From IMG/VR virus record IMGVR_UViG_3300035670_006100, positions 1 through 35,184 of that record: DNA of 35,184 nt. The stretch is one strand, 5' to 3'. The translations under genes and the position numbers were made by a program. Shown here in pieces: positions 2,408 through 27,069 of the stretch. The first letter of the stretch is position 1. Every line of letters begins with the position of its first letter. This stretch comes from a virus. The notes under the pieces are model-generated. The model made no database searches and was not told the DNA's origin. It was given only the letters and a program-made list of their open reading frames with translations.

Positions 2408-2962
2408 TTAGTTTCCCCCAATCAATGCCTTTGAAAATATTTCAAAAAAATATTTATCAAACTGTGACTTGTCTTGGTCATGATGTTTTACCAACTCAGG
2501 ATTTGCCAACCCCACCAACTGCTTCACTCTCTGAGGCACAGACCCCTTAAACTTCCACGCTTTTGTTCGATCATATCCGCTTGGATCACGTAATCTGTCT
2601 TTCTGCCATTGCAAATACTTCATAAACTCTTTTACTTCCCAAGCATAAAAACGATCCCACCATTTAATCGCCCCATCAATTACCGTATGTGCATCCTTAC
2701 CCCTAAACGCCTTCTCAAAATCAAATCCAACTTGTGTGTCAAAAATTGCCTGAATAACTTCCTTTTGCTCCGCATTTGCGAGTGCGATCCAAAATTCAAA
2801 ATACTTTGATATTTCTTCTTCGCTAGGATTCTCGCTTATCGCCGTTCCGTCAAAATATCTTCCAAACTGTGCAGTCTCATCCGCGCCAAAATAAACCCTC
2901 TTACTACTTCCTACTGCCCCCTGAAACTTGGGAGCACTGAAAATTGCTTCCCAATTTAGCAT
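2408..2962 (-). CDS. Uncharacterised late protein, 184 aa
   Basis: It follows the 51-aa gene by 2 nt and precedes the large glycosyltransferase by 1 nt, so the three are one transcription unit. The product is soluble, acidic/aromatic and mostly helical, with many Trp, Phe and Tyr residues (for example WWDRFYAWEVKEFMKYLQW near residue 98). It has no membrane segment, signal peptide or recognisable catalytic motif. Its position just downstream of the capsid gene would suit a head-completion, head-tail or virion-decoration function, but this is positional inference only. Confidence 0.7.
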   Translation of the reverse strand: MLNWEAIFSAPKFQGAVGSSKRVYFGADETAQFGRYFDGTAISENPSEEEISKYFEFWIALANAEQKEVIQAIFDTQVGFDFEKAFRGKDAHTVIDGAIKWWDRFYAWEVKEFMKYLQWQKDRLRDPSGYDRTKAWKFKGSVPQRVKQLVGLANPELVKHHDQDKSQFDKYFFEIFSKALIGGN

Positions 2963-2964
2963 CT

Positions 2965-3120
2965 CTATCTCCCCTTTTTCTTCTTACCGTGTTGTTTCCA
3001 CATACTAAAACAAATCGCAATCGCTTGATCCTGACTTTGCGCTGTGCCCTCTTTAATCACCATCGAAATACAACGCCCCATGTACTCATTCTTACTTTCA
3101 CCCTTCATCGGCTTCGGCAT
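2965..3120 (-). CDS. Small phage head-region protein with RC-x-CFSMW motif, 51 aa
   Basis: This short gene starts at the ATG at 3120 and encodes a basic protein beginning MPKPMKGES, then NEYMGRC, then AIAICFSMWKQ. The arrangement KGES-x-(D/N)-(F/Y)-x-x-RC ... QA-x-AIC-x-x-W recurs, from memory, in phage head-gene clusters, often at the tail end of head maturation proteases or portal-associated proteins; here it is free-standing. The two cysteines may pair or bind metal. It lies between the capsid gene and the 184-aa gene. A real gene is likely; its biochemical role is unknown. Confidence 0.65.
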   Translation of the reverse strand: MPKPMKGESKNEYMGRCISMVIKEGTAQSQDQAIAICFSMWKQHGKKKKGR

Positions 3121-3140
3121 CTCTTACTCCTTTAATGGAA

Positions 3141-3163
3141 GGGAGTTTTTTACCAGAACTCCC
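3141..3163 (-). terminator. Hairpin after the major capsid gene
   Basis: A perfect 7-bp inverted repeat (GGGAGTT / AACTCCC, 9-nt loop) lies 30 nt past the capsid stop codon. It lacks a long uridine tract on the minus-strand transcript, so it is more likely a partial terminator or RNA-stabilising hairpin that lowers expression of downstream genes relative to capsid protein. Confidence 0.45.
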
Positions 3164-3193
3164 CAAAACTGGATAACCAATAACTTCCGTTTA

Positions 3194-4108
3194 TCAGCTA
3201 GTAGCGAGATTTAACAACATTCCCGATGTTTTCTCGTTATGAACTTCCAGCGTAACCTCAGTCACGACTTCACCCTTACGAGACAAGCCCGTAGGAGCAT
3301 ATTCGTGAGCGCGAGGCTCAGAACCCATAAGATAAGCCAGTTTGTTGAAATCAGGCAGGTATGTAACCACTGCACTAGGCACAACACTGTTCATCTCATG
3401 AGAAAGCTGAATTTCGTAAGTCCCGAAGTCCGTGATAATCTGGTCAATCGGAATACTAAGAGTCCGATCACCGATCACAACTTCACGACGATTTGCACTG
3501 TCAAACGATGCAAAGTTTTCAGAAATCCGTCTTTTCTGATAAGCACCAACAAGAGCCACACCACCGCGAACATTGGAATTCGTCCAAATGTTCTGAGCCA
3601 GAGTATCAAAAATACTCGGACTAAGTTGCTGACCCGAATACGAAGAACCATCCTTATAGCTGGAAATGAAAGAAATCAGCCCTTTCATCCTCCGAGCCGC
3701 AGAACCCGTTCCTGATGCAATCGTACCAAACAAAGCCGCTTTTTCCAAATCCTTCTTAAGAGCAATGGTCTTTTTCGTTTTCTGATAAGACCAATTGTCT
3801 GCCATTCCATGATGTTTTACATTGAGTTTCGTCAATGTAATCTGAAACGGCTTGCGAAGAATCTGCGTAATGTTGATGACCTTTGAAGGATCAGTCAACG
3901 AGGGGTATGTAGGATCACTACCTTCAATTCCTGCATTATCCGCGCTATCCTCAATAGTATCCGTCATCCACTTGTGTTCAGTATCTTCCGCATTAGGAGC
4001 CGTACCGATGTTACTCACATACGGTGTCTCCGTAATACTCACATTCGCAATCAAAGGGCGAACATCCTCCACTCTAACCGCTGAATCATACGTCCAAAAA
4101 TTACCCAT
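3194..4108 (-). CDS. Major capsid protein (SU10-like MCP family, HK97 fold)
   Basis: The 304-aa product opens with FWTYDSAVRVEDVRPLI, then SITETPYVSNIGTAPNAED and HKWMTD. This matches the N-terminal pattern of the SU10 major capsid family (formerly DUF5309): F-x-TYDA-x-G-x-RED..I..ISPT-x-TPF..I followed by H-x-W-x-TD. Length is typical for that family (about 300-350). The gene follows a coiled-coil scaffold-like gene by 35 nt, with an AAAGGA site upstream of the ATG, and is followed by a hairpin. The capsid protein self-assembles into the icosahedral shell around the scaffold. No delta-domain cleavage is obvious. Confidence is high from both sequence pattern and context. Confidence 0.88.
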   Translation of the reverse strand: MGNFWTYDSAVRVEDVRPLIANVSITETPYVSNIGTAPNAEDTEHKWMTDTIEDSADNAGIEGSDPTYPSLTDPSKVINITQILRKPFQITLTKLNVKHHGMADNWSYQKTKKTIALKKDLEKAALFGTIASGTGSAARRMKGLISFISSYKDGSSYSGQQLSPSIFDTLAQNIWTNSNVRGGVALVGAYQKRRISENFASFDSANRREVVIGDRTLSIPIDQIITDFGTYEIQLSHEMNSVVPSAVVTYLPDFNKLAYLMGSEPRAHEYAPTGLSRKGEVVTEVTLEVHNEKTSGMLLNLATS

Positions 4109-4143
4109 AAATGAATCCTTTCCTCAGTTTAATGAAATCAAAC

Positions 4144-4956
4144 CTATACTTTTTCACCCAATTGCGCTTTGAGCTTTGCGTTAAGCTCATCAATTCTCAC
4201 ATAAACCTTGGCCGCTTCTGTAATACGACCTTGATTGCTGAGAACCGCCGCATTGTAAATCAAAGCATTGATCTGTTTTTGAAGAACATCGACAGTTGCA
4301 GTCTGTGTCGGTACTTGACGTTTATCCTCGTCTCCACCCACGACATTCTGCACTACAGCCTTTGTTTCTTCGTCTTTCTGCTTAGTATCTTCAACTTTAG
4401 AAGGCTTTTCAGCTTGAGCACCGCCAGCTAGAACATAGGCTTTTTCCAAAGCTACGTTCACGTCACTATACACATCCTTCAAGGTCGCAAACTCTTGGTC
4501 AAATCGTGCCAAGACCTCTGGATTACTTAATCCCTTATGAGTTGCTTTAAAGTTATTGTATATCTCCGTTGCTTTTCGTGCCGCTTCTGAGCGTTTCTGT
4601 GTCTGCGTTAACTTATACTCAACCGCCGCTTCCACACCCTCTTCTTCCAATATCTTAGAAAAGGTCGCATCTGCCTCACGCTTGGCAGTAGGCTTAGAAC
4701 GCATTTCCTCGTTCTCTTTTTTCAAACGCTCATTTTCTTCTTTCAATCGAAGAGCCTCTTCCGTGGAACCTTTATATTGTCCCTTTAACGTGTCGTGCTT
4801 TTTCTGAAGCTCAACAAATTCCGTTGACGGATTAGCAGGACTACCTTTCTCATTTTGAGGTTCAGGTGTCTGTGCAGGGTTTGGCTTCTCCTGCGGTGGT
4901 GAGTTAGGCTTTTGCCCTTCACCTTCTATAACTTTTTCTTTGTTCTCATCTGTCAT
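4144..4956 (-). CDS. Head scaffolding-like protein (coiled coil)
   Basis: The 270-aa protein starts with a disordered Pro/Glu/Gln-rich tail (1-45). A strong charged coiled coil follows (about 48-90, with EALRLKEENERLKKENEEM), then further helical segments and a C-terminal helix ending in AKLKAQLGEKV. This composition, and the position directly upstream of the capsid gene, are typical of tailed-phage scaffolding proteins, which template procapsid assembly and then leave. The start has a good AAGGAGAG site. No protease domain is present here, so if a head protease exists it is elsewhere or absent. Confidence 0.75.
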   Translation of the reverse strand: MTDENKEKVIEGEGQKPNSPPQEKPNPAQTPEPQNEKGSPANPSTEFVELQKKHDTLKGQYKGSTEEALRLKEENERLKKENEEMRSKPTAKREADATFSKILEEEGVEAAVEYKLTQTQKRSEAARKATEIYNNFKATHKGLSNPEVLARFDQEFATLKDVYSDVNVALEKAYVLAGGAQAEKPSKVEDTKQKDEETKAVVQNVVGGDEDKRQVPTQTATVDVLQKQINALIYNAAVLSNQGRITEAAKVYVRIDELNAKLKAQLGEKV

Positions 4957-5444: not shown

Positions 5445-7607
5445 TTACGCTTCGATGTTATTAACTCTAGGTCTTGCAAGATTCGCTATATTCCTCACCA
5501 TCGGCGAACCCTGATTCCCCATATTACCTTCTGGCCCCATGGCAGGAATTCCAGGTAGTTGCATCTGCTGTCCCTGCTCAGGCATCATCTGTGCGGCTTG
5601 TTGTGCTCTCATCTGCATCTCTAACTGCATTTCCTGCAAACGATTCTCAATCCTCATCACGTGCTCTTGCATCTCTTCCCTATCCGTCCCATCCATAACC
5701 TTTGTATAAATCTCTGTCTCCATGAAGGCTTGATGAGCGCGAAGTTTTTGCTGAAGAGCCGCCATATCTTCCTGTGGGCTTAACTTCACCGATTCTCCCT
5801 GCCCTGCCGCAAATAACGCTTGTTCCTCGATAATCGAAAGCGGTTCACTCTCCACCTTCAAAATCTTCTCAATCTTTTTCGGCAACACATTCTCTAAAAT
5901 CGCCTTATCAACTTCCACCAAATCAATGTGTGGAGCCTGTGCCCAAAATGGCCTCAATTGAATTAATTGTTGCAACTCAATCTCTTTATTCCCAAAGAAC
6001 GTACTTGTCGTAACCTTAATATCATAATCTCCAAGGATATTCTCCAAACTCTCGGTCTTAAACTCCAACCCTTTACGCCCTGCCGTCCTCAACACAAACC
6101 TTTCATCCCCAAACAACTGAATCAGCTTCAACACTCGATTCCCTAACACTCCATGCTTATCAAGAATCCCATTAATCACCATAGCATTTCCTGCTTGCTG
6201 TTCATTGAGGATGCTAATAATCGACGTTGCAGGTGTCCTATTAATACTCGAAATCGCCTGTTGAATATTCACATTCCCTGTAGTTTCTCTAAAAATATTC
6301 ATCAATCGTTCTTCTTCGTTCACGCTAAGATATTCCAAACTCTGAAACTGCATCGGTTCCATAGCTGAACTCGCGGGTCTATCTCCCGTACTAACTGGAT
6401 GAAACGCCCCAGGCATACTCACATACGCATGATCTTCTAAAATTGCATCCACATTAATTAGGAACTGCGGATTAATCTTTAACTTCACCGAATCCCCGCG
6501 CTGACACAAGAAATCATTAATATGATACGTCAATTCCACCACGGGATCAACTACTCCCCACGGTGTCAACGAGTGCAATGACCTCGAAAACTGCACATCC
6601 ACAAACGGATACTCTCCCAATAAATTCTCTTCAGCTAACAAAATCTGATTATTCTCCAAAATCACATTGGCCTTGATAAACTCCCTCATGCCATCCCCGT
6701 CCACATCGAACCATCCATACCAATGCACGACTTGGTAACACGGCTTCCTCTGAGTCACAGGCGTATCCACCAACCCATCCTGCCTTCTCAATTCTGGCCC
6801 CTTCTCATCTACCAACAGCGTATTAATCCCATGCGGATCAGACTTAGCTAAATTATCATACGCTCCCGCCTCATATACACTTCTTGCTTCCTTCTCATAA
6901 ATCTCTTCCGCTGTCTCATCCACGACCTCATACACATACCCACACGCCCACTTGTCAAATGACTTCGCTGTTGCATCCCATCCACAATGATCGACAATAT
7001 CCACTGCTCTAACAAAAGGTTGATTTATCTTGTTCTTGCGTTTTACGTATCTATATCTAGGATTACCTTCTTTGTCCCTTATAACCTTATTATCTTCTTC
7101 CCTTACAACTTCGCGCCACAACACCTCATCCGTTCTCCGCACCCATCCGTACCTATAAACCCCCAACCCATATTTCACACAACTCCGAATCCCCTCTTCA
7201 CTAACCCCGTAAAATCCAATCCTATCCATCGTATTATTCAACACCGCTTCCGCTGACTGCGCGAAGTCATGATCTTCCGGTGTCCGTCCAAGAGCCGAAT
7301 AAGGAGAGGACAATCTATTTCCCCACAACGCTTGATGTACCACACTTGTCTTATTCTCAATCGCATTGAAAGGCAACGGGAGAAATATCTTTGTCTGCCA
7401 ACCCGCTTTATTTTTCTCCATGTACGATTGATTGCGATAAATAGCATTAATCTCAAGCATCCTATTTCGTCGCACCGCATACGCACCGTTAAAGCTATCA
7501 ATCGACTGACGAATTGTTTTAATCAATTCCCTCTGTCGATCCTCTTTCTTTAACTGATCCGTAACGTCTGTAATCTTTTTAATTTTTATAATTGCTTCGT
7601 CAGACAT
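5445..7607 (-). CDS. Portal protein, 720 aa
   Basis: This is the dodecameric head vertex through which DNA is packaged and ejected. Evidence is a 720-aa protein directly after the large terminase, with a helical N-terminus, a central region containing WYGWFDVDGDGMRE and DVQFSRSLHSLTPWGVVDPV, and a Gln/Met/Pro/Gly-rich C-terminal tail (EMQMRAQQAAQMMPEQ region). These are usual for large podovirus-type portals (about 700 aa). I prefer the ATG at 7607, which has AGGAG 6 nt upstream, over an in-frame TTG at 7628 that lacks such a site. The gap to the terminase stop is 8 nt. No nuclease or MuF fusion is seen. Confidence 0.85.
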   Translation of the reverse strand: MSDEAIIKIKKITDVTDQLKKEDRQRELIKTIRQSIDSFNGAYAVRRNRMLEINAIYRNQSYMEKNKAGWQTKIFLPLPFNAIENKTSVVHQALWGNRLSSPYSALGRTPEDHDFAQSAEAVLNNTMDRIGFYGVSEEGIRSCVKYGLGVYRYGWVRRTDEVLWREVVREEDNKVIRDKEGNPRYRYVKRKNKINQPFVRAVDIVDHCGWDATAKSFDKWACGYVYEVVDETAEEIYEKEARSVYEAGAYDNLAKSDPHGINTLLVDEKGPELRRQDGLVDTPVTQRKPCYQVVHWYGWFDVDGDGMREFIKANVILENNQILLAEENLLGEYPFVDVQFSRSLHSLTPWGVVDPVVELTYHINDFLCQRGDSVKLKINPQFLINVDAILEDHAYVSMPGAFHPVSTGDRPASSAMEPMQFQSLEYLSVNEEERLMNIFRETTGNVNIQQAISSINRTPATSIISILNEQQAGNAMVINGILDKHGVLGNRVLKLIQLFGDERFVLRTAGRKGLEFKTESLENILGDYDIKVTTSTFFGNKEIELQQLIQLRPFWAQAPHIDLVEVDKAILENVLPKKIEKILKVESEPLSIIEEQALFAAGQGESVKLSPQEDMAALQQKLRAHQAFMETEIYTKVMDGTDREEMQEHVMRIENRLQEMQLEMQMRAQQAAQMMPEQGQQMQLPGIPAMGPEGNMGNQGSPMVRNIANLARPRVNNIEA

Positions 7608-7615
7608 TTCTTCTC

Positions 7616-9208
7616 CTATAGATACCAAGCGTTATCACTACTACCAAGTCTAAATCCATTCGCACTTCCAACCCCTGCTTTTTTCCCCATCACATGTCTT
7701 AACACATACGCCAACACATCTATAATATCCTTCGTCTTACCATGAGGAAACCTTACCAACTCCGTCACCAACTCATGCATCCAATGGCGTATATAAAACT
7801 GTCCCCGTTCAAAATGTGGAATCAGCACCCTAATCCTTACATCCTTTGCGGCGTGTCCAGGCTTTAATTCCGTCACCTTCAACGCCTTCCCATACTGTTG
7901 CGACTTCTCTTCCAAATTATAAATTCCCTGTAATTGATACGCAACCGATTCCCATCCTACAAACTTCGTCCCCCACTTATCGCTCATCTCAAAAATCCCG
8001 TCAAACAATTCCGATTCTTTTGCCCTCGTATATAACTTATAATCCAGCACATAAATATTTCTCCGTTTATCCCATCCTGCGACCAGTACCACTCCCCGAT
8101 CATGACTTGTTGAGGCTGTTTTCTTTGCAGTGATGGGATCGACGAAGATCATCTTTTCCAACACAATCTCATGTCCATTTACATCTCTAGGTAACTCATA
8201 ATACGTCTGAATCCACGTCCGCTTAATCTCTTGTTGATCCTCTGGAACTGGGTCTAAGAGGTACTGAGTCGAAAAAATATAACTCCCCTGTTGATTCTGA
8301 ATATTCAGCAAACTCTCTTTAGTATGCTGTTCTTTCCAAATCGGCTCATTGTTCTCATCAAAGACAGGCTGTACGAACTGCTTAAAACTCTCCCTAACCT
8401 CTGGTGTCTCCAAGAACGTATAAAGATCATGATCCGTATAATTCGTTCCCACCACCATAATAGGAATCTTCCCTCTGGCCTTCTTAGAATTCACAATACT
8501 CAAGAAAAATCTATACGCCTTAATCACCTTCGCGCATTGTTCCGGTGTAGTCGAATTCTCCCTCGTTACAATATCATCAAATCCAAGTTCCCCAAAGTGC
8601 TTTCCCGTAACCGTTGCATCCACCCCTACCGCCTCAAGTGTACACTGAGCATAATTCCCTGCCCTGGCCACATTAAATTCCGTCTCCGTCCACTTGTTCT
8701 TTCTCTCATTCCTCAACCAATCCGGTACAATCTGAGGATACAATGCCCTGATCTTCTTATTATTCGTCAACTCATACCTTATTGCCCTACACGTGTCTTT
8801 GCTGAGATCGAGGGTTCCCGACACAATAAGCGAACACAACTCAGGATTATTAACAATACGCCATATTCTATAATAGATAGTACAAATCTGAGTTTTAAGA
8901 TGGTATCGAGGTAAACGTATGACGCAATTAGTCCCAATATTTTTACAGCGGCGTACAAACCTCGCCAACTCTCTATGCACCCTTGCCAGTTTAACCGGAG
9001 TTTCTCCCCTTCTCTCCGCATCCAACACTTCCAACAAAAATGCCCACAAGTCGTATTTATACGTGAGCTTTCTCTCCGCAACTCTAAGCTCCGCAATAAC
9101 TCTCTTTTTCTCTTCCGCGCTCTCACCCACTCCTGCATCAAACTCTCTAAGTACCTTCCGAAGTTGGCGTATCTTACGAAAGTCCGAAAGTTCATTAAAC
9201 TCATTCAT
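7616..9208 (-). CDS. terL: Terminase large subunit (packaging ATPase and nuclease)
   Basis: The 530-aa protein has the two TerL domains. The N-terminal ATPase carries the deviant Walker A RLPRYHLKTQ (about residue 98-107) and the Walker B region GELGFDDIVT. The C-terminal RNase H-like nuclease carries FVDPITAKK and the late acidic DIIDVLAYV. It drives DNA into the prohead through the portal and cuts the concatemer. The ATG at 9208 shares one base with the TGA of the preceding gene (TGATG), which supports this start over the TTG one codon upstream. Portal follows at once. Confidence 0.93.
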   Translation of the reverse strand: MNEFNELSDFRKIRQLRKVLREFDAGVGESAEEKKRVIAELRVAERKLTYKYDLWAFLLEVLDAERRGETPVKLARVHRELARFVRRCKNIGTNCVIRLPRYHLKTQICTIYYRIWRIVNNPELCSLIVSGTLDLSKDTCRAIRYELTNNKKIRALYPQIVPDWLRNERKNKWTETEFNVARAGNYAQCTLEAVGVDATVTGKHFGELGFDDIVTRENSTTPEQCAKVIKAYRFFLSIVNSKKARGKIPIMVVGTNYTDHDLYTFLETPEVRESFKQFVQPVFDENNEPIWKEQHTKESLLNIQNQQGSYIFSTQYLLDPVPEDQQEIKRTWIQTYYELPRDVNGHEIVLEKMIFVDPITAKKTASTSHDRGVVLVAGWDKRRNIYVLDYKLYTRAKESELFDGIFEMSDKWGTKFVGWESVAYQLQGIYNLEEKSQQYGKALKVTELKPGHAAKDVRIRVLIPHFERGQFYIRHWMHELVTELVRFPHGKTKDIIDVLAYVLRHVMGKKAGVGSANGFRLGSSDNAWYL

Positions 9209-10348: not shown

Positions 10349-10810
10349 TTATACCTCCCCTTGTTTGTCCTGATGTGGACAAACTCCCTTATTTATTTTC
10401 TTGCCAAAATTACAGTTCATACATAGTACCTGTAAATCATTTGGATAATTATTTCTCACAATCCATCCATAAAAACTCTGTCCAGCCCCACCATTATTTC
10501 TGCCTCTTATACTGCGTCTATGTTGAGCACCATCATTATTGATATGATCAATAGTTAAAAAATTAACTTCTTTCTCTCCGCAACATTTACATACACCACC
10601 ATAAGCATTCAATACTTTTAGTTTTAATTTACGTTGCCATTGACGAGAATGCAATTTACGCTCATTTGCACATTTTTCACAACGAGTGGTATCTTTTAAA
10701 GGAAATTTACCACAATTACTACATAATCCCAAACTAATCAAATTTCTACGCCTTTTGAGCGTATATGTTTGTTGATGTACTTTTCTTATGGAAACATCTT
10801 TAAACGGCAT
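10349..10810 (-). CDS. HNH endonuclease with N-terminal zinc ribbon
   Basis: The 153-aa protein has an N-terminal four-cysteine zinc knuckle (C30-x2-C33 and C44-x2-C47). An HNH domain follows: C74-x2-C77, the catalytic IDHINNDG (D88-H89), NNYPNDLQVLC and a second C130-x2-C133 pair. Either it is a free-standing homing endonuclease or it assists the terminase in cohesive-end cutting, as shown for HNH proteins encoded beside terminases in some cos phages. Its DNA looks clearly more AT-rich than the flanking glycosyltransferase and terminase genes, which favours recent acquisition. Its ATG overlaps the small terminase stop (TAATG). Confidence 0.88.
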   Translation of the reverse strand: MPFKDVSIRKVHQQTYTLKRRRNLISLGLCSNCGKFPLKDTTRCEKCANERKLHSRQWQRKLKLKVLNAYGGVCKCCGEKEVNFLTIDHINNDGAQHRRSIRGRNNGGAGQSFYGWIVRNNYPNDLQVLCMNCNFGKKINKGVCPHQDKQGEV

Positions 10811-11286
10811 TATGAATTTTCCTTAGTTAATTTTTCTAAAGATGCTAATAATTCTCCTGCGGTAGATTCTCTTTCCATAGGTTTTTCTGCCTTCCACAAA
10901 CCCACAGCCATTCCAAGCAACTTCTGCTTCACACCCTTGGTATTCATAATCTTCACAATCTCTTCTACCGTGACCTTACCTGAATTCTTCAACTCATTCA
11001 GGGTACTCAAATCATCCATAATATCCTGTACGATAACTTCAGGCGTAAGCTTCTTCAATAAATCCTTATCTCTAACTTTGAGCAACTTTTCTAGCTCTTC
11101 CATAACTCCCTCTTCCCACATACGGTGTGAACAATTTGTCTCGCTAATCTTGGCGATCCCAGGACTATATCGCCTATAGGCTTCCTTCACGTCCAGCTTG
11201 CCTGTTTCCTGAATCGTTTGTGCTAAAAGCATAGCCTTCCGCTTTACCCTTACCTGCTTCGCTTTTTTCTTTGGCCCTAAAGTCAT
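10810..11286 (-). CDS. terS: Terminase small subunit (putative)
   Basis: The first gene of the leftward late block encodes a 158-aa basic, helical protein. The N-terminal KKKAKQVRVKRKAMLLAQTIQETGKLDVKEAYRRYSPG resembles the DNA-binding helix-turn-helix of small terminases. The central helices (EELEKLLKVRDKDLLKKL) would form the oligomerisation part. It would recognise the packaging start site and recruit the large terminase. The start has GGAGTAAGC upstream. Assignment rests on length, composition and position rather than on a diagnostic motif. Confidence 0.65.
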   Translation of the reverse strand: MTLGPKKKAKQVRVKRKAMLLAQTIQETGKLDVKEAYRRYSPGIAKISETNCSHRMWEEGVMEELEKLLKVRDKDLLKKLTPEVIVQDIMDDLSTLNELKNSGKVTVEEIVKIMNTKGVKQKLLGMAVGLWKAEKPMERESTAGELLASLEKLTKENS

Positions 11287-12709: not shown

Positions 12710-12944
12710 AGGCAATGTGCAGGAGCTAGTGAACCTTATCACGCCACATTTTCAAGGCTTTAATGTGACGCAAGGTGTAGGATACTATCAGGGGAAGAAA
12801 GAAGCTTTTGTTTGCTTTGAGATTGATACGTTAGAAGATGATAATAAGATTGCTATACATCGGCTAGCCGTGGAAATTAGGGAATACAACAAACAAGAGT
12901 GCGTGTTAGTGCAAGAAATAGCGGCCAAGTCTAGATTAATCTAA
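12681..12944 (+). CDS. Conserved-looking small phage protein, 87 aa
   Basis: The ATG at 12681 is chosen over an in-frame ATG at 12651 because GAGGGAGGG lies just upstream of it. The protein has an alternating alpha/beta pattern (MIYRIVTEDKGNVQELV, then GVGYYQGKKEAFVCFEID, then IREYNKQECVLVQ), like a small ferredoxin-like fold. The combination of GYYQGKKE with a C-terminal CVLVQE strand reminds me of a widespread hypothetical phage/plasmid family, but I cannot name it. Paired hairpins follow its stop codon. Confidence 0.65.
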   Translation: MIYRIVTEDKGNVQELVNLITPHFQGFNVTQGVGYYQGKKEAFVCFEIDTLEDDNKIAIHRLAVEIREYNKQECVLVQEIAAKSRLI

Positions 12945-12955
12945 GCAGAGTCAAG

Positions 12956-13007
12956 GCAAGGCAAGTATTCCTTGCTTTAATGCTACAGTCTGGTGACAAG
13001 TCCAGAC
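12956..13007 (+). other. Two RNA hairpins between early genes
   Basis: GCAAGG/CCTTGC (12956-12961 with 12970-12975) followed by TTTAA, and GTCTGG/CCAGAC (12988-12993 with 13002-13007), both with 8-nt loops and perfect 6-bp stems. They fill the gap before the 35-aa gene. They may be mRNA processing or stabilising elements, or weak attenuators. Confidence 0.35.
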
Positions 13008-22079: not shown

Positions 22080-22279
22080 TTTTTAACGTAACAGATGCGA
22101 AACAAGCATTGCCGACATTAAGTGATGAACAAGCTAGGTTGTTTGCTAAGACTGCCAATGCTCATTATGTGAGACTAAGTGCAGTAAATAGTCCGCATGA
22201 GTTTTGTAGGACACGCGCATTGAGTCTAACAATAGCAGAGTTTAAAAGGAGAACCGAAAATGGAACTAATGCCTCCTGA
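22058..22279 (+). CDS. Small early protein, 73 aa
   Basis: The ATG at 22058 (GGGAGAATTCC upstream) is preferred to one 12 codons before. It encodes a helical protein (LSDEQARLFAKTANAHYVRL, CRTRALSLTIAEFKRR). No motif is recognised. It overlaps the Cas4-like nuclease gene by 20 nt. Confidence 0.5.
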   Translation: MWPNKTIIFNVTDAKQALPTLSDEQARLFAKTANAHYVRLSAVNSPHEFCRTRALSLTIAEFKRRTENGTNAS

Positions 22280-23087
22280 TAAGGTGTTTGCGTTTGGCGC
22301 ATCACCATCTATGTTAGCACTATGGCAATTATGTAAGCACAAGTGGTGGTTGCATTACATTGCGCGGCAAGGCAGGACTGAGAGAGAGGCTCAAAAGGAT
22401 AGTGGCGCGGCATTTCATAAATTCTTTGCAGACTGGTATGGGCCAGTGACTAGGACATTGGAAGAGCATATCGAGAATTTTAAGAAAGAATTTCCTGAGC
22501 AAGAGAGTACGGACAAGCGAGATCAAAAGCATTGTTTGGCTATTCTCAAGGCATATACAGAACGGTATCCGCGAGAAAATGAGCCATTTAAGGTAATCGA
22601 GACTGAACAGAAATTGAATGTCGAGATACCAGGATGTAAGTTAAAGCTGAATGGGGTCATTGACTTGAGTGTTGATTTGCGGAATGGCTTATGGGTCATA
22701 GATCACAAGACCAGCAATCGTTTAGGTACATCATACTTCGATCAGTTCCGTAATCACTGGCAGACATATACTTACATCTATGCGGCAGGGGTACATTATA
22801 AACGTAAGTGTGAGGGTATTCTATACAATGCAGTAGGGATGAAGCAAAAAATTGATGCTGATTCGTTTCTGCGCTGTGATGTGAGCAAGACACAGGATCA
22901 GTTAGACTTCCATATAGCGCAATGGACTGAGCATGTGAACGAGATGTATGATTTTGTGACAGCGAATTGGCAGGATGGAAGTAAATTCTTTTCTGCCAAC
23001 ACTCCGAGTGCGTGTCATGCTTATAATGTTAAATGTTTTGCACTTGATTATTGTGAATTCAATCAGAACGAAAGGATGTTACCATAA
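22260..23087 (+). CDS. Cas4/RecB-like PD-(D/E)XK exonuclease with Fe-S cysteines
   Basis: The 275-aa product has the RecB-nuclease motifs: H53 in GAAFHKFF, NGVIDL (D135), WVIDHKT (D148-x-K150) and HWQTYTYIYA (the Q-x-x-Y element). C25 and a C-terminal trio (C252, C259, C265) are placed as in Cas4 and AddB-type iron-sulfur nucleases. It probably resects DNA ends to give single strands for annealing by the Sak4-like protein next to it (TAATG overlap). There is no CRISPR array in the window, so this is a replication/recombination enzyme rather than an adaptation protein. Confidence 0.82.
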   Translation: MELMPPDKVFAFGASPSMLALWQLCKHKWWLHYIARQGRTEREAQKDSGAAFHKFFADWYGPVTRTLEEHIENFKKEFPEQESTDKRDQKHCLAILKAYTERYPRENEPFKVIETEQKLNVEIPGCKLKLNGVIDLSVDLRNGLWVIDHKTSNRLGTSYFDQFRNHWQTYTYIYAAGVHYKRKCEGILYNAVGMKQKIDADSFLRCDVSKTQDQLDFHIAQWTEHVNEMYDFVTANWQDGSKFFSANTPSACHAYNVKCFALDYCEFNQNERMLP

Positions 23088-23827
23088 TGGACGTTGTACA
23101 TTGCGAGAACATAGTACCGGAATTTAAGAAGATTTTGATAACAGGCGTTGAGAAGTCAGGTAAGACCAGCTTTATTGGAACCATGCCTCGACCTATCCTT
23201 GTATTTGCAGGAGAAACAGGGGCCGAAACAAGGTTTGCAGGACAGAAGGACATAGACGTAGTGAGATGCTACGATCAAAAGGGCGAGTTAGATGGATCAG
23301 GTTATCGAAGGTTTGATAAGAACTGGAAGGAACTGTTGACCCTTAAAGAAGTTCCTTACAAAACCATTGCGATTGATCCATTGTCGTTTATCTCCGATTA
23401 CATTGTGGATGAGATCGAACGTACCAATCCAGGTTTAAAAGGAAGCGCGAATACGTTCAAGTTTTGGGATTTAGTGTTTGCCAAGCATAGCTACATCTTG
23501 CGCAACGTCTTGAAGATGGTAGAGTATGTATGCGTCACTTCGCACGTAACCATTGACGAGGACGAAACTACTGGACGAACCATGTTCATGCCTAATTTGA
23601 ACGGGAAGTCGTTGAGAAATAACATCGGTGGATGGTTCGATGCTGTGTTGTTTACCTACGTTAAGCCAGCGGGAAATAAGGTAGATTACGGAGTCTATGC
23701 ACTTCCTGATGCTCAACGTAAAGCAGGTATTCGTGTACCGCTTGGCTGTGAAGGATTGGTTGGACGTGAAATGCCAAGTGATTTTGTTAAGATTAACGAG
23801 ATTCTAAAGAAAGAGGCAAAGAAATGA
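23087..23827 (+). CDS. Sak4-like RecA-family ATPase (phage recombinase)
   Basis: The 246-aa protein has a Walker A GVEKSGKTSF (20-29), a Walker B-like TIAIDPL (D97) and a later CVTSHVTIDED segment, consistent with the AAA_24/Sak4 group of RecA-core proteins. These promote single-strand annealing together with a cognate SSB. The neighbours support this: nuclease upstream and an SSB-like gene downstream. The length (about 240) is typical. The start is coupled to the nuclease stop by a one-base overlap. Confidence 0.8.
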   Translation: MDVVHCENIVPEFKKILITGVEKSGKTSFIGTMPRPILVFAGETGAETRFAGQKDIDVVRCYDQKGELDGSGYRRFDKNWKELLTLKEVPYKTIAIDPLSFISDYIVDEIERTNPGLKGSANTFKFWDLVFAKHSYILRNVLKMVEYVCVTSHVTIDEDETTGRTMFMPNLNGKSLRNNIGGWFDAVLFTYVKPAGNKVDYGVYALPDAQRKAGIRVPLGCEGLVGREMPSDFVKINEILKKEAKK

Positions 23828-24604: not shown

Positions 24605-26278
24605 ATGACAGTGCCAGACCAGATTGCACAGAATCCAAAAATTATGATTGTGGGAGAGTGTCCAGGAGCCGATGAAGAACGCTTGGGCCGCCCATTTGTG
24701 GGTCGTGCAGGACACCAATTAGATAAGATATTGTTAGTGGCAGGGGTGATTCGAGAGGAATGTTATATTACGAATGTTATAAACGAAAGGCCACCGAAAA
24801 ATGATTTTTCGATCTACTATGTCAACTCAAAACGAACACTGCCAAGCGAAACTCTCACAAGGGCTAGACAAGAACTTATTGCGAAGATCAGACGAGTCAA
24901 TCCTAAAGTGGTTATCGCGCTTGGAACCGAAGCAACGAAAGCAATTGTTAATAAGTTTGGCATCGAGTGTCAAAGAGGAAGTATTTTTCCTATCCCCGAT
25001 GTTGGTATACCTTGCATTCCTACTTTTCACCCTTCTGCGATTTTAAGAGGTGGAGGGACAAGTCATTGGTATCTACCTGCCGCAATTCATGATGTTCAGA
25101 GAGCAAAGGCTGTAGCGAACGGTACTGCTACTGCTCACCTGCCTAATTATAAAGTCATAACAGTTCCAGCACATTTAGATCAATGGTTTGGGACTGTCTC
25201 TCAAGCCTCGGCCCTATGCGCGTTTGATATAGAAACAGAGTATATTGGGGGAGAGTGGATTAAATGCATAGGGTTCGCGGCAGGAGAGGAAGAAGGGATC
25301 GTAGTACCGTTTGGGAAAGAGTTAATTACGGGACAGCTTGAATTGTTACAAGTAATCCGTAAGTGGATGACCAGTGGATTGATTGCATGGATCGGACAAA
25401 ATGCATACAATTTTGATATGCCCATGATTAAACAAATATGGGGATTTGAAGTTAAGAATTATAAGTATGATACAATGGTTATGCATCATGTGTTATATCC
25501 AGAGTTTCCACACGATCTTGCTACGATTGCGTCATTTTATACATTAATTCCTTATTGGAAAGATACGAGTGGAGAGAATTTGTATAAGTACAATGCGTAT
25601 GATGCGGTGGCTACGTGGGTATCTCAGCAAGCCATGTGGAAAGAGATTAAGGACAGAAAGTTTGATACGCTTTACACAGAATACTATCAGCCATTGCTTA
25701 GAGCACTGAATATTATTACCATGCGCGGCATGAGGATTGACAAGGAATATCAATTGAAATTACGGAAGGAACTGAAAGATGAAATCAAAACGCTCCAAAC
25801 CGAATTGGACAAAATCTATTTACAGCACACAAACACTAATAGACTACAGCGAACTCTTCTTAGAATTGCTAAACTTATGCAGGGCGGTAGAAAAACTGTC
25901 TCGCTTAGAAACAAAAAAACACAGAAGTTCCAAAAGAAGCGGCTTAGTTCGCTCCAAACCGCGACAGAGAAAGAGATCAAGAAACGCGGGACATTGAATG
26001 TTAGGTCAACAAAGGACTTAGCACAGTTTCTGTACAAGACATTGAAGCTACCCATTAAGACGAAGCAAGGCAAGACTACCACGGATGTGACAGCATTGAA
26101 TCAATTGTATATCAAGAGTAAGCATCCGTTTCTCAAGACCATGTTGAAGATTAGAAACTTACGTAATATGCTGTCTCGATGGGGGCATCTTAAAACAGAC
26201 GAAGATGGACTAATCAGCACCACGTATAGTTTTGCAGATACCGGACGATTAAAGAGTGGAAAGTTTGAGGCGAAATAA
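24605..26278 (+). CDS. DNA polymerase family A, part 1: UDG-like + 3'-5' exonuclease + N-terminal polymerase region
   Basis: 557 aa. Residues 11-170 resemble family 4/5 uracil-DNA glycosylase: VGECPGADEERLGRPFVGRA and FHPSAILRGG. The iron-sulfur cysteines of family 4 are not in place (TNVINERPP where the family has a Cys). Residues 205-340 are a DnaQ-like proofreading exonuclease: FDIET (D208, E210), NAYNFDM (D271) and Y329-x3-D333. The thumb/palm start follows, ending at DTGRLKSGKFEAK, just after the TGRL motif that in normal Pol I-type enzymes continues to LQNIP. The rest is in the next gene. UDG-exo-PolA fusions are known in SPO1-like phages. The start is fixed by an in-frame stop just upstream; AAAGGA is present. 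Confidence 0.85.
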   Translation: MTVPDQIAQNPKIMIVGECPGADEERLGRPFVGRAGHQLDKILLVAGVIREECYITNVINERPPKNDFSIYYVNSKRTLPSETLTRARQELIAKIRRVNPKVVIALGTEATKAIVNKFGIECQRGSIFPIPDVGIPCIPTFHPSAILRGGGTSHWYLPAAIHDVQRAKAVANGTATAHLPNYKVITVPAHLDQWFGTVSQASALCAFDIETEYIGGEWIKCIGFAAGEEEGIVVPFGKELITGQLELLQVIRKWMTSGLIAWIGQNAYNFDMPMIKQIWGFEVKNYKYDTMVMHHVLYPEFPHDLATIASFYTLIPYWKDTSGENLYKYNAYDAVATWVSQQAMWKEIKDRKFDTLYTEYYQPLLRALNIITMRGMRIDKEYQLKLRKELKDEIKTLQTELDKIYLQHTNTNRLQRTLLRIAKLMQGGRKTVSLRNKKTQKFQKKRLSSLQTATEKEIKKRGTLNVRSTKDLAQFLYKTLKLPIKTKQGKTTTDVTALNQLYIKSKHPFLKTMLKIRNLRNMLSRWGHLKTDEDGLISTTYSFADTGRLKSGKFEAK

Positions 26279-27069
26279 TGGCTAGAATAATCCAAAATAC
26301 TCAGAATGTGCCACGTGATGCGAGATATAAGAATTTATTCTTGCCGTTGCGTGAGGGGGAGATGTTGTTAGAAGGAGACTTGTCTCAAGCTGAAGGTATG
26401 GTAGTGGCATGGAAGGCCGAAGAACAGACATTGATTGAGAAGTATGAAAAGGGTGCAGACGTTCACTCATTTGTAGGTACGATTGTAATGGGCAAGCCTG
26501 TGACTAAAGATACTAAGGTTGAGCGTACTGTGTCTAAGCGCATAGTTCACGGATCAAATTACGGCATGAGTAAGATTAAAATGTCGGAGGTATTACTTAA
26601 CGAAGCCGATATTGTTATTGAGCCGAGAGAGTGTCAAAAGAAACAGAATGTATATTTTCAAAACTTTCCGCGCATACGATCAATTTATCATGCAGAAATT
26701 GAGAAAGAGTTGAGAGAAAATTTAAGACAACTATCTACACCGAATGGTTGGAAGCGTAAATTCTTTTCCCCATTTGGAGCAGATTTAATGAAGCAAGCCT
26801 TTGCACATTATCCACAAAACGTAGTTGCCTACGTAACCAACACTGGATTGATTAGATTGATAGCGTGGGGATGGAGTGAGTATATTTATGCTCAAGTACA
26901 CGATTCGATTTTAATGTCTGTACCTGTACCTAAGTTACCTATGGCCGCCAAGATATTAAAGAAAGCCATGACACTTGCAATTCCTATCAAGTCTCGAACC
27001 TTGACTATTCCGGTAGAACTGAAGATCGGTCAGCGTTGGGGAGAAATGAAGGATTACCATGTCGAGTAA
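26278..27069 (+). CDS. DNA polymerase family A, part 2: palm and fingers
   Basis: 263 aa carrying the catalytic core: IQNTQNVP (equivalent of LQNIP) at the N-terminus, motif A EGDLSQAE (D34), motif B RTVSKRIVHGSNYG (R83, K87, Y95-G96) and motif C QVHDSIL (D209, with Ser where Pol I has Glu). The ATG shares one base with the stop of part 1 (TAATG) and has GAGG 7 nt upstream, so re-initiation is plausible. In the frame of part 2 there is a stop only four codons before the ATG. Either two polypeptides assemble, or a frame change or sequence error divides one gene. It overlaps the next gene by 11 nt. Confidence 0.85.
   Translation: MARIIQNTQNVPRDARYKNLFLPLREGEMLLEGDLSQAEGMVVAWKAEEQTLIEKYEKGADVHSFVGTIVMGKPVTKDTKVERTVSKRIVHGSNYGMSKIKMSEVLLNEADIVIEPRECQKKQNVYFQNFPRIRSIYHAEIEKELRENLRQLSTPNGWKRKFFSPFGADLMKQAFAHYPQNVVAYVTNTGLIRLIAWGWSEYIYAQVHDSILMSVPVPKLPMAAKILKKAMTLAIPIKSRTLTIPVELKIGQRWGEMKDYHVE

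Follow-up and report, generated by a model that had tools for sequence, protein, structure and literature searches.

A family-A phage DNA polymerase that is very probably encoded by two genes, with the same cut in a diverged relative

Organization of the two polymerase genes

In the phage DNA analyzed here (IMG/VR record IMGVR_UViG_3300035670_006100, whose whole stretch of 35,184 bases we call the window), a DNA polymerase of the UDG-exo-Pol type is distributed over two adjacent open reading frames, and a diverged phage, IMGVR_UViG_3300022707_000608 (L011), has its polymerase cut at the same residue. We consider it highly likely that these are two separate genes which arose by fission of a family-A polymerase gene in the common ancestor of both phages, and that they specify a two-chain enzyme. 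This reading is supported by two intact frames, an identical cut in the diverged relative, conserved catalytic residues and the location of the cut in a variable loop. The two ORFs are arranged head-to-tail with one base in common, within the sequence TAATG. The features are as follows.

24605 to 26278, + strand: part 1 (557 aa), with the UDG, the 3'-5' exonuclease, the thumb and the start of the palm, ending just past TGRL (PF03167, PF00476, phrog_17)
24614 to 25093, + strand: UDG domain, part 1 residues 4-163 (PF03167; the family-4 UDG structures 1ui0 and 1l9g match)
about 25790 to 25990, + strand: basic thumb insertion, part 1 residues ~396-462 (alignment)
26240 to 26251, + strand: TGRL motif (residues 546-549 of part 1) with an arginine that is invariant family-wide
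26267 to 26270, + strand: GAGG in the final codons of part 1, possibly the part 2 ribosome-binding site (sequence)
26276 to 26280, + strand: TAATG, where the stop codon of part 1 overlaps the start codon of part 2, possibly a site of coupled translation (sequence)
26278 to 27069, + strand: part 2 (263 aa), which contains motifs A, B and C in its palm and fingers (PF00476, AlphaFold2, Foldseek)
26377 to 26394, + strand: motif A, DLSQAE, part 2 residues 34-39, D34 invariant
26524 to 26562, + strand: motif B, R83...K87...H91...Y95 of part 2, with K87, H91 and Y95 invariant
26893 to 26907, + strand: motif C, QVHDS, part 2 residues 206-210, H208 and D209 invariant

Part 1 matched the Pfam UDG family PF03167 (4.8e-27) and positions 5-123 of PF00476, the first third of DNA_pol_A, while part 2 matched PF00476 positions 127-381. 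On PHROG phrog_17, part 1 covered positions 477-980 and part 2 covered 981-1237, which indicates that nothing was lost or doubled at the junction. The preliminary description, which had placed the division inside the polymerase domain, with part 1 stopping just after TGRL and part 2 carrying motifs A, B and C, was therefore borne out. The main catalytic residues are found in both parts: part 1 keeps the exonuclease residues D208/E210, D271 and Y329/D333, invariant in alignment A10, and part 2 has motifs A, B and C as conserved in the alignments. With a PF00476 domain carrying these three motifs the polymerase belongs to family A (Pol I-type), and with a UDG, a 3'-5' exonuclease and a polymerase matched continuously by phrog_17 it belongs to the UDG-exo-Pol type. 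The family A norm is that the motifs lie in one chain with the thumb, whereas here motifs and thumb are on separate ORFs.

By eye, the UDG domain (24605-25093) has no cysteines where several relatives carry them (e.g., NCKFC and VISCRPPDN in L005), suggesting that the iron-sulphur cluster that family-4 UDGs carry may have been lost. The basic thumb insertion (~25790-25990) is common to part 1 of the window and of L011 and absent from L114 in the alignment. Its position is presumably the site of the thioredoxin-binding loop in T7 polymerase.

At the junction, the C-terminus of part 1 reads ...TTYSFADTGRLKSGKFEAK followed by the stop codon, and the N-terminus of part 2 reads MARIIQNTQNVPRD. The TAATG overlap, the GAGG 7 nt before the ATG of part 2 and the closure of the part 2 frame by a TGA (26266-26268) four codons upstream of that ATG were all correctly described before. 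The GAGG has a pairing energy of -6.0 kcal/mol. As a pairing energy at least as good is reached by about 20% of the ATGs between 12000 and 30000, the Shine-Dalgarno sequence was dropped as proof of a genuine start; it is ordinary for the window phage and proves little. The same type of overlap as TAATG occurs at 23087, between the ORFs 22260-23087 and 23087-23827.

Elsewhere in the window, an SU10-type major capsid protein (3194-4108, - strand; PF17236, 3.7e-64) and a portal (5445-7628, - strand; PF23899) were identified. The start of a free-standing HNH endonuclease ORF (10349-10810, - strand; phrog_2255, 1.7e-9) and the stop codon of ORF 10810-11286 have one base in common, and a type-P5 twister ribozyme lies at 12944-13005 on the + strand (Rfam RF02684, 39.7 bits vs a gathering score of 37.6).

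A diverged relative divided at the same residue

L011 (46272 bases) was the only close relative found. It turned up in an alignment-based scan of viral contigs; scans of viral contigs with single proteins, part 1 or part 2, gave no relatives. L011 was again the only close relative in further scans that started from part 1 or its C-terminus, from part 2, from the AAA gene or from the phosphoesterase, in collections that may omit records very near the window. Among the genome contigs, none matched part 1 and three distant ones matched part 2. When the relatives were aligned by protein for both parts, L011, the one close relative, showed the same cut rather than an uninterrupted gene, and most of the more distant relatives had a single gene. 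In a quick tree, the only source of our tree figures, the window and L011 formed one clade (SH-aLRT 99), with the unsplit L118 and L114 near.

In L011 coordinates, part 1 occupies 2813-4501 and part 2 occupies 6001-6783. Part 1 stops at the same residue in both phages (TGRLRSGKYEAK in L011 vs TGRLKSGKFEAK in the window, each followed by the stop codon; the last residues are TTYSFAETGRLRSGKYEAK vs TTYSFADTGRLKSGKFEAK), and part 2 starts at the equivalent residue (MSEIINAQNFPRD vs MARIIQNTQNVPRD). The identity between the two phages is 48% for part 1 and 49% for part 2. Because the boundaries are identical in the closest relative, the split is more than chance. The shared cut rests on two phages, both of them metagenome contigs, with L011 as the sole relative.

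The interval of ~1.5 kb between the L011 parts is filled by about seven small ORFs on the same strand, several of them with Shine-Dalgarno-like sequences. The last one is an HNH endonuclease (phrog_3377, 4.4e-12) which overlaps the start of part 2. The preliminary description had suggested that the split might be what a lost intein or intron left behind, and such an origin could be envisaged if this interval were a self-splicing intron with its HNH gene, whose imprecise loss in the ancestor of the window left a frame break. The HNH gene adjoining part 2 would fit, and phage DNA polymerase genes with group I introns that carry endonuclease genes are known from work cited in PMC10580990 and from titles cited in PMC2988022. 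However, an Rfam search of the interval returned no intron at E up to 5, small ORFs tile the interval, part 2 of L011 has its own GGAGAG and ATG, and part 1 of L011 stops at the same codon as that of the window, where the two parts overlap. An in-frame intein is likewise not seen at the cut: the window has a stop codon and no insert there, and L011 has several stops. We regard an intron origin as improbable, though the least improbable of the alternatives to an old gene fission. A further gene directly follows part 2 in L011 and is missing at that place in the window, showing that small insertions at gene boundaries do occur in L011. Fission driven by an HNH endonuclease, as in T4-like phages, is possible by analogy; the HNH gene of L011 may have caused the split or may have arrived later at an existing boundary.

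An error of sequencing or assembly, by which one true gene would have acquired a spurious frame break, had been named before as the main alternative. The two frames are a single-base shift apart and the more distant relatives are single genes, in line with such an indel, but the junction contains no homopolymer, and L011 has its part 1 stop and part 2 start at the same residues with ~1.5 kb between them. The gene order is common to both phages (exonuclease, AAA, SSB-placed gene, part 1, part 2, AAA, phosphoesterase), and for several of these neighbors the alignment between the two phages spans most of the gene and is free of frame breaks. Since a diverged phage is cut at the very same residue, a chance indel is very unlikely, and the polymerase is very probably, judging from the sequences, a genuine two-piece enzyme.

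Programmed -1 frameshifting at GCGAAATAATG, which would yield a fused polymerase besides part 1, fits the part 2 frame being -1 to part 1 and the overlap of the frames, but the window has no X XXY YYZ slippery heptamer and a shared open frame of only three codons, and the ~1.5 kb between the L011 parts excludes it as a shared mechanism, so we give it very little credence. The break in a usually single-chain enzyme might also mark a recently broken, disused polymerase, a reading made equally implausible by intact halves with their main catalytic residues in two phages ~50% diverged and by differences that fall mostly at third codon positions (0.43/0.34/0.65 for positions 1/2/3 in part 1 and 0.40/0.30/0.61 in part 2, window vs L011), an excess in both parts as in genes under amino-acid constraint.

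Position of the cut and predicted structures

On the family profile, the cut lies at 515/520 in both the window and L011, with continuous coverage across it. A cut at ~357 was seen in L007, and most other loci have one ORF. Most unsplit relatives have 16 or 22 residues in the segment from TGR to QN, and L071, L107 and L108 have insertions of 14 or more there. L114, which at 35% identity is the nearest unsplit relative, was folded by AlphaFold2 as a single-chain stand-in (pLDDT 90.9, pTM 0.87; TGR at 495-497), and the position of the cut corresponded to a loop between the strand 499-502 and the helix 518-521. The alignment and the model thus place the cut in a loop that varies in length among unsplit relatives, and the predicted secondary structure would be left whole.

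Part 2 alone was predicted by AlphaFold2 with a pLDDT of 92.7 and a pTM of 0.88, only residues 1-6 being below 50; this predicted fold leans on relatives that are mostly single-chain. In a Foldseek comparison of the model with Pol I structures, the best match was 8jrb (E 1.7e-13, TM-score by query 0.74). The cut leaves the thumb and the invariant arginine of TGRL on part 1 and the catalytic aspartates on part 2. Both chains would be needed, since these elements are on different parts.

Proposed two-chain enzyme

We propose an old gene fission in the common ancestor of the window phage and L011. In the window phage both chains would be translated from one mRNA, with part 2 made by re-initiation at TAATG, the overlap suggesting coupled translation. 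Part 1 would contribute the UDG, the proofreading exonuclease, the thumb and the conserved TGRL arginine, and the catalytic aspartates would come with the palm and fingers of part 2. Because part 2 lacks a thumb and part 1 lacks the catalytic core, we infer that the two chains assemble non-covalently into one polymerase. For the two-subunit polymerase proposed in the preliminary description, two polypeptides are thus retained, with re-initiation at TAATG as the probable route, while reassembly and activity are suggested by the anatomy and by analogy with the split gp43 of phage 25. Another polymerase may be encoded elsewhere in the genome of the window phage; the record (35184 bases) is linear by IMG/VR class and may be incomplete.

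If this is true, a UDG-proofreading-thumb subunit and a catalytic subunit are produced from separate start codons, and the Pol I-type polymerase domain has a natural break point that separates the conserved primer-side arginine from the catalytic aspartates and whose residue is unchanged in phages ~50% diverged. The assembly of an A-family active site from two chains, and endonuclease genes as drivers of fission, become testable. Annotation pipelines may overlook or 'repair' such split polymerases.

Comparison with known systems

The parallel with gp43A/gp43B drawn in the preliminary description is sound (PMC2988022). In T4-like Aeromonas phages, gp43A and gp43B are separated by an endonuclease gene in phage 25 and by untranslated sequence in 44RR, and the two phage 25 products are reported to co-purify with polymerase activity (PMC2988022). 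As in these phages, the replicative polymerase of the window is in two genes, adjacent ORFs that jointly make up one complete polymerase and are conserved between phages. The gp43 proteins of 25 and 44RR are of family B and their parts are spaced, whereas those of the window are of family A and overlap with nothing between.

Unsplit phrog_17 polymerases (L114, Microcystis phage Mel-JY34 and the Manatee Spring phages) have the same domain order and motifs at 25-35% identity but are single chains, unlike that of the window. In Caulobacter phage Kuura (L006) and the L039-L085 group, the UDG-exonuclease and polymerase parts are in separate genes as in the window, but the cut is at the boundary between the exonuclease and polymerase domains (profile 323/325), whereas that of the window is inside the polymerase domain. 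The 323/325 cut was found in L006, L039, L041, L044-L046, L048, L051, L052, L054, L055, L061, L066-L068, L079, L081, L082, L084 and L085; in Kuura, two small ORFs lie between the UDG-exonuclease and polymerase genes.

MEP401 and MEP402 (OM43 phages, Zobellviridae; L091) have a family-A polymerase in ORF13 and ORF15; the split was published for them and their relatives without a functional test (PMC10580990). As in the window, their polymerase is cut within PF00476 between TGRL and motif A, and the second gene carries the catalytic motifs; a small ORF (ORF14) lies between the parts, as several do in L011. In MEP401 the cut follows QNF...LSRYGE, ~20 residues further on (profile 539/544 vs 515/520 in the window and L011), and the first gene of MEP401/402 is listed without a UDG, unlike part 1 of the window. 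The cut of the window and L011, kept at the same residue across two diverged phages and located in a polymerase of the UDG-exo-Pol type, is different and probably a separate event, and the fission in MEP401/402 was probably independent of it. We see an even chance that at least two independent cuts, one in this clade and one in MEP401-like phages, have occurred in the short segment from TGRL to motif A of phage family-A polymerases and have produced natural two-chain enzymes whose subunits could be regulated or exchanged separately.
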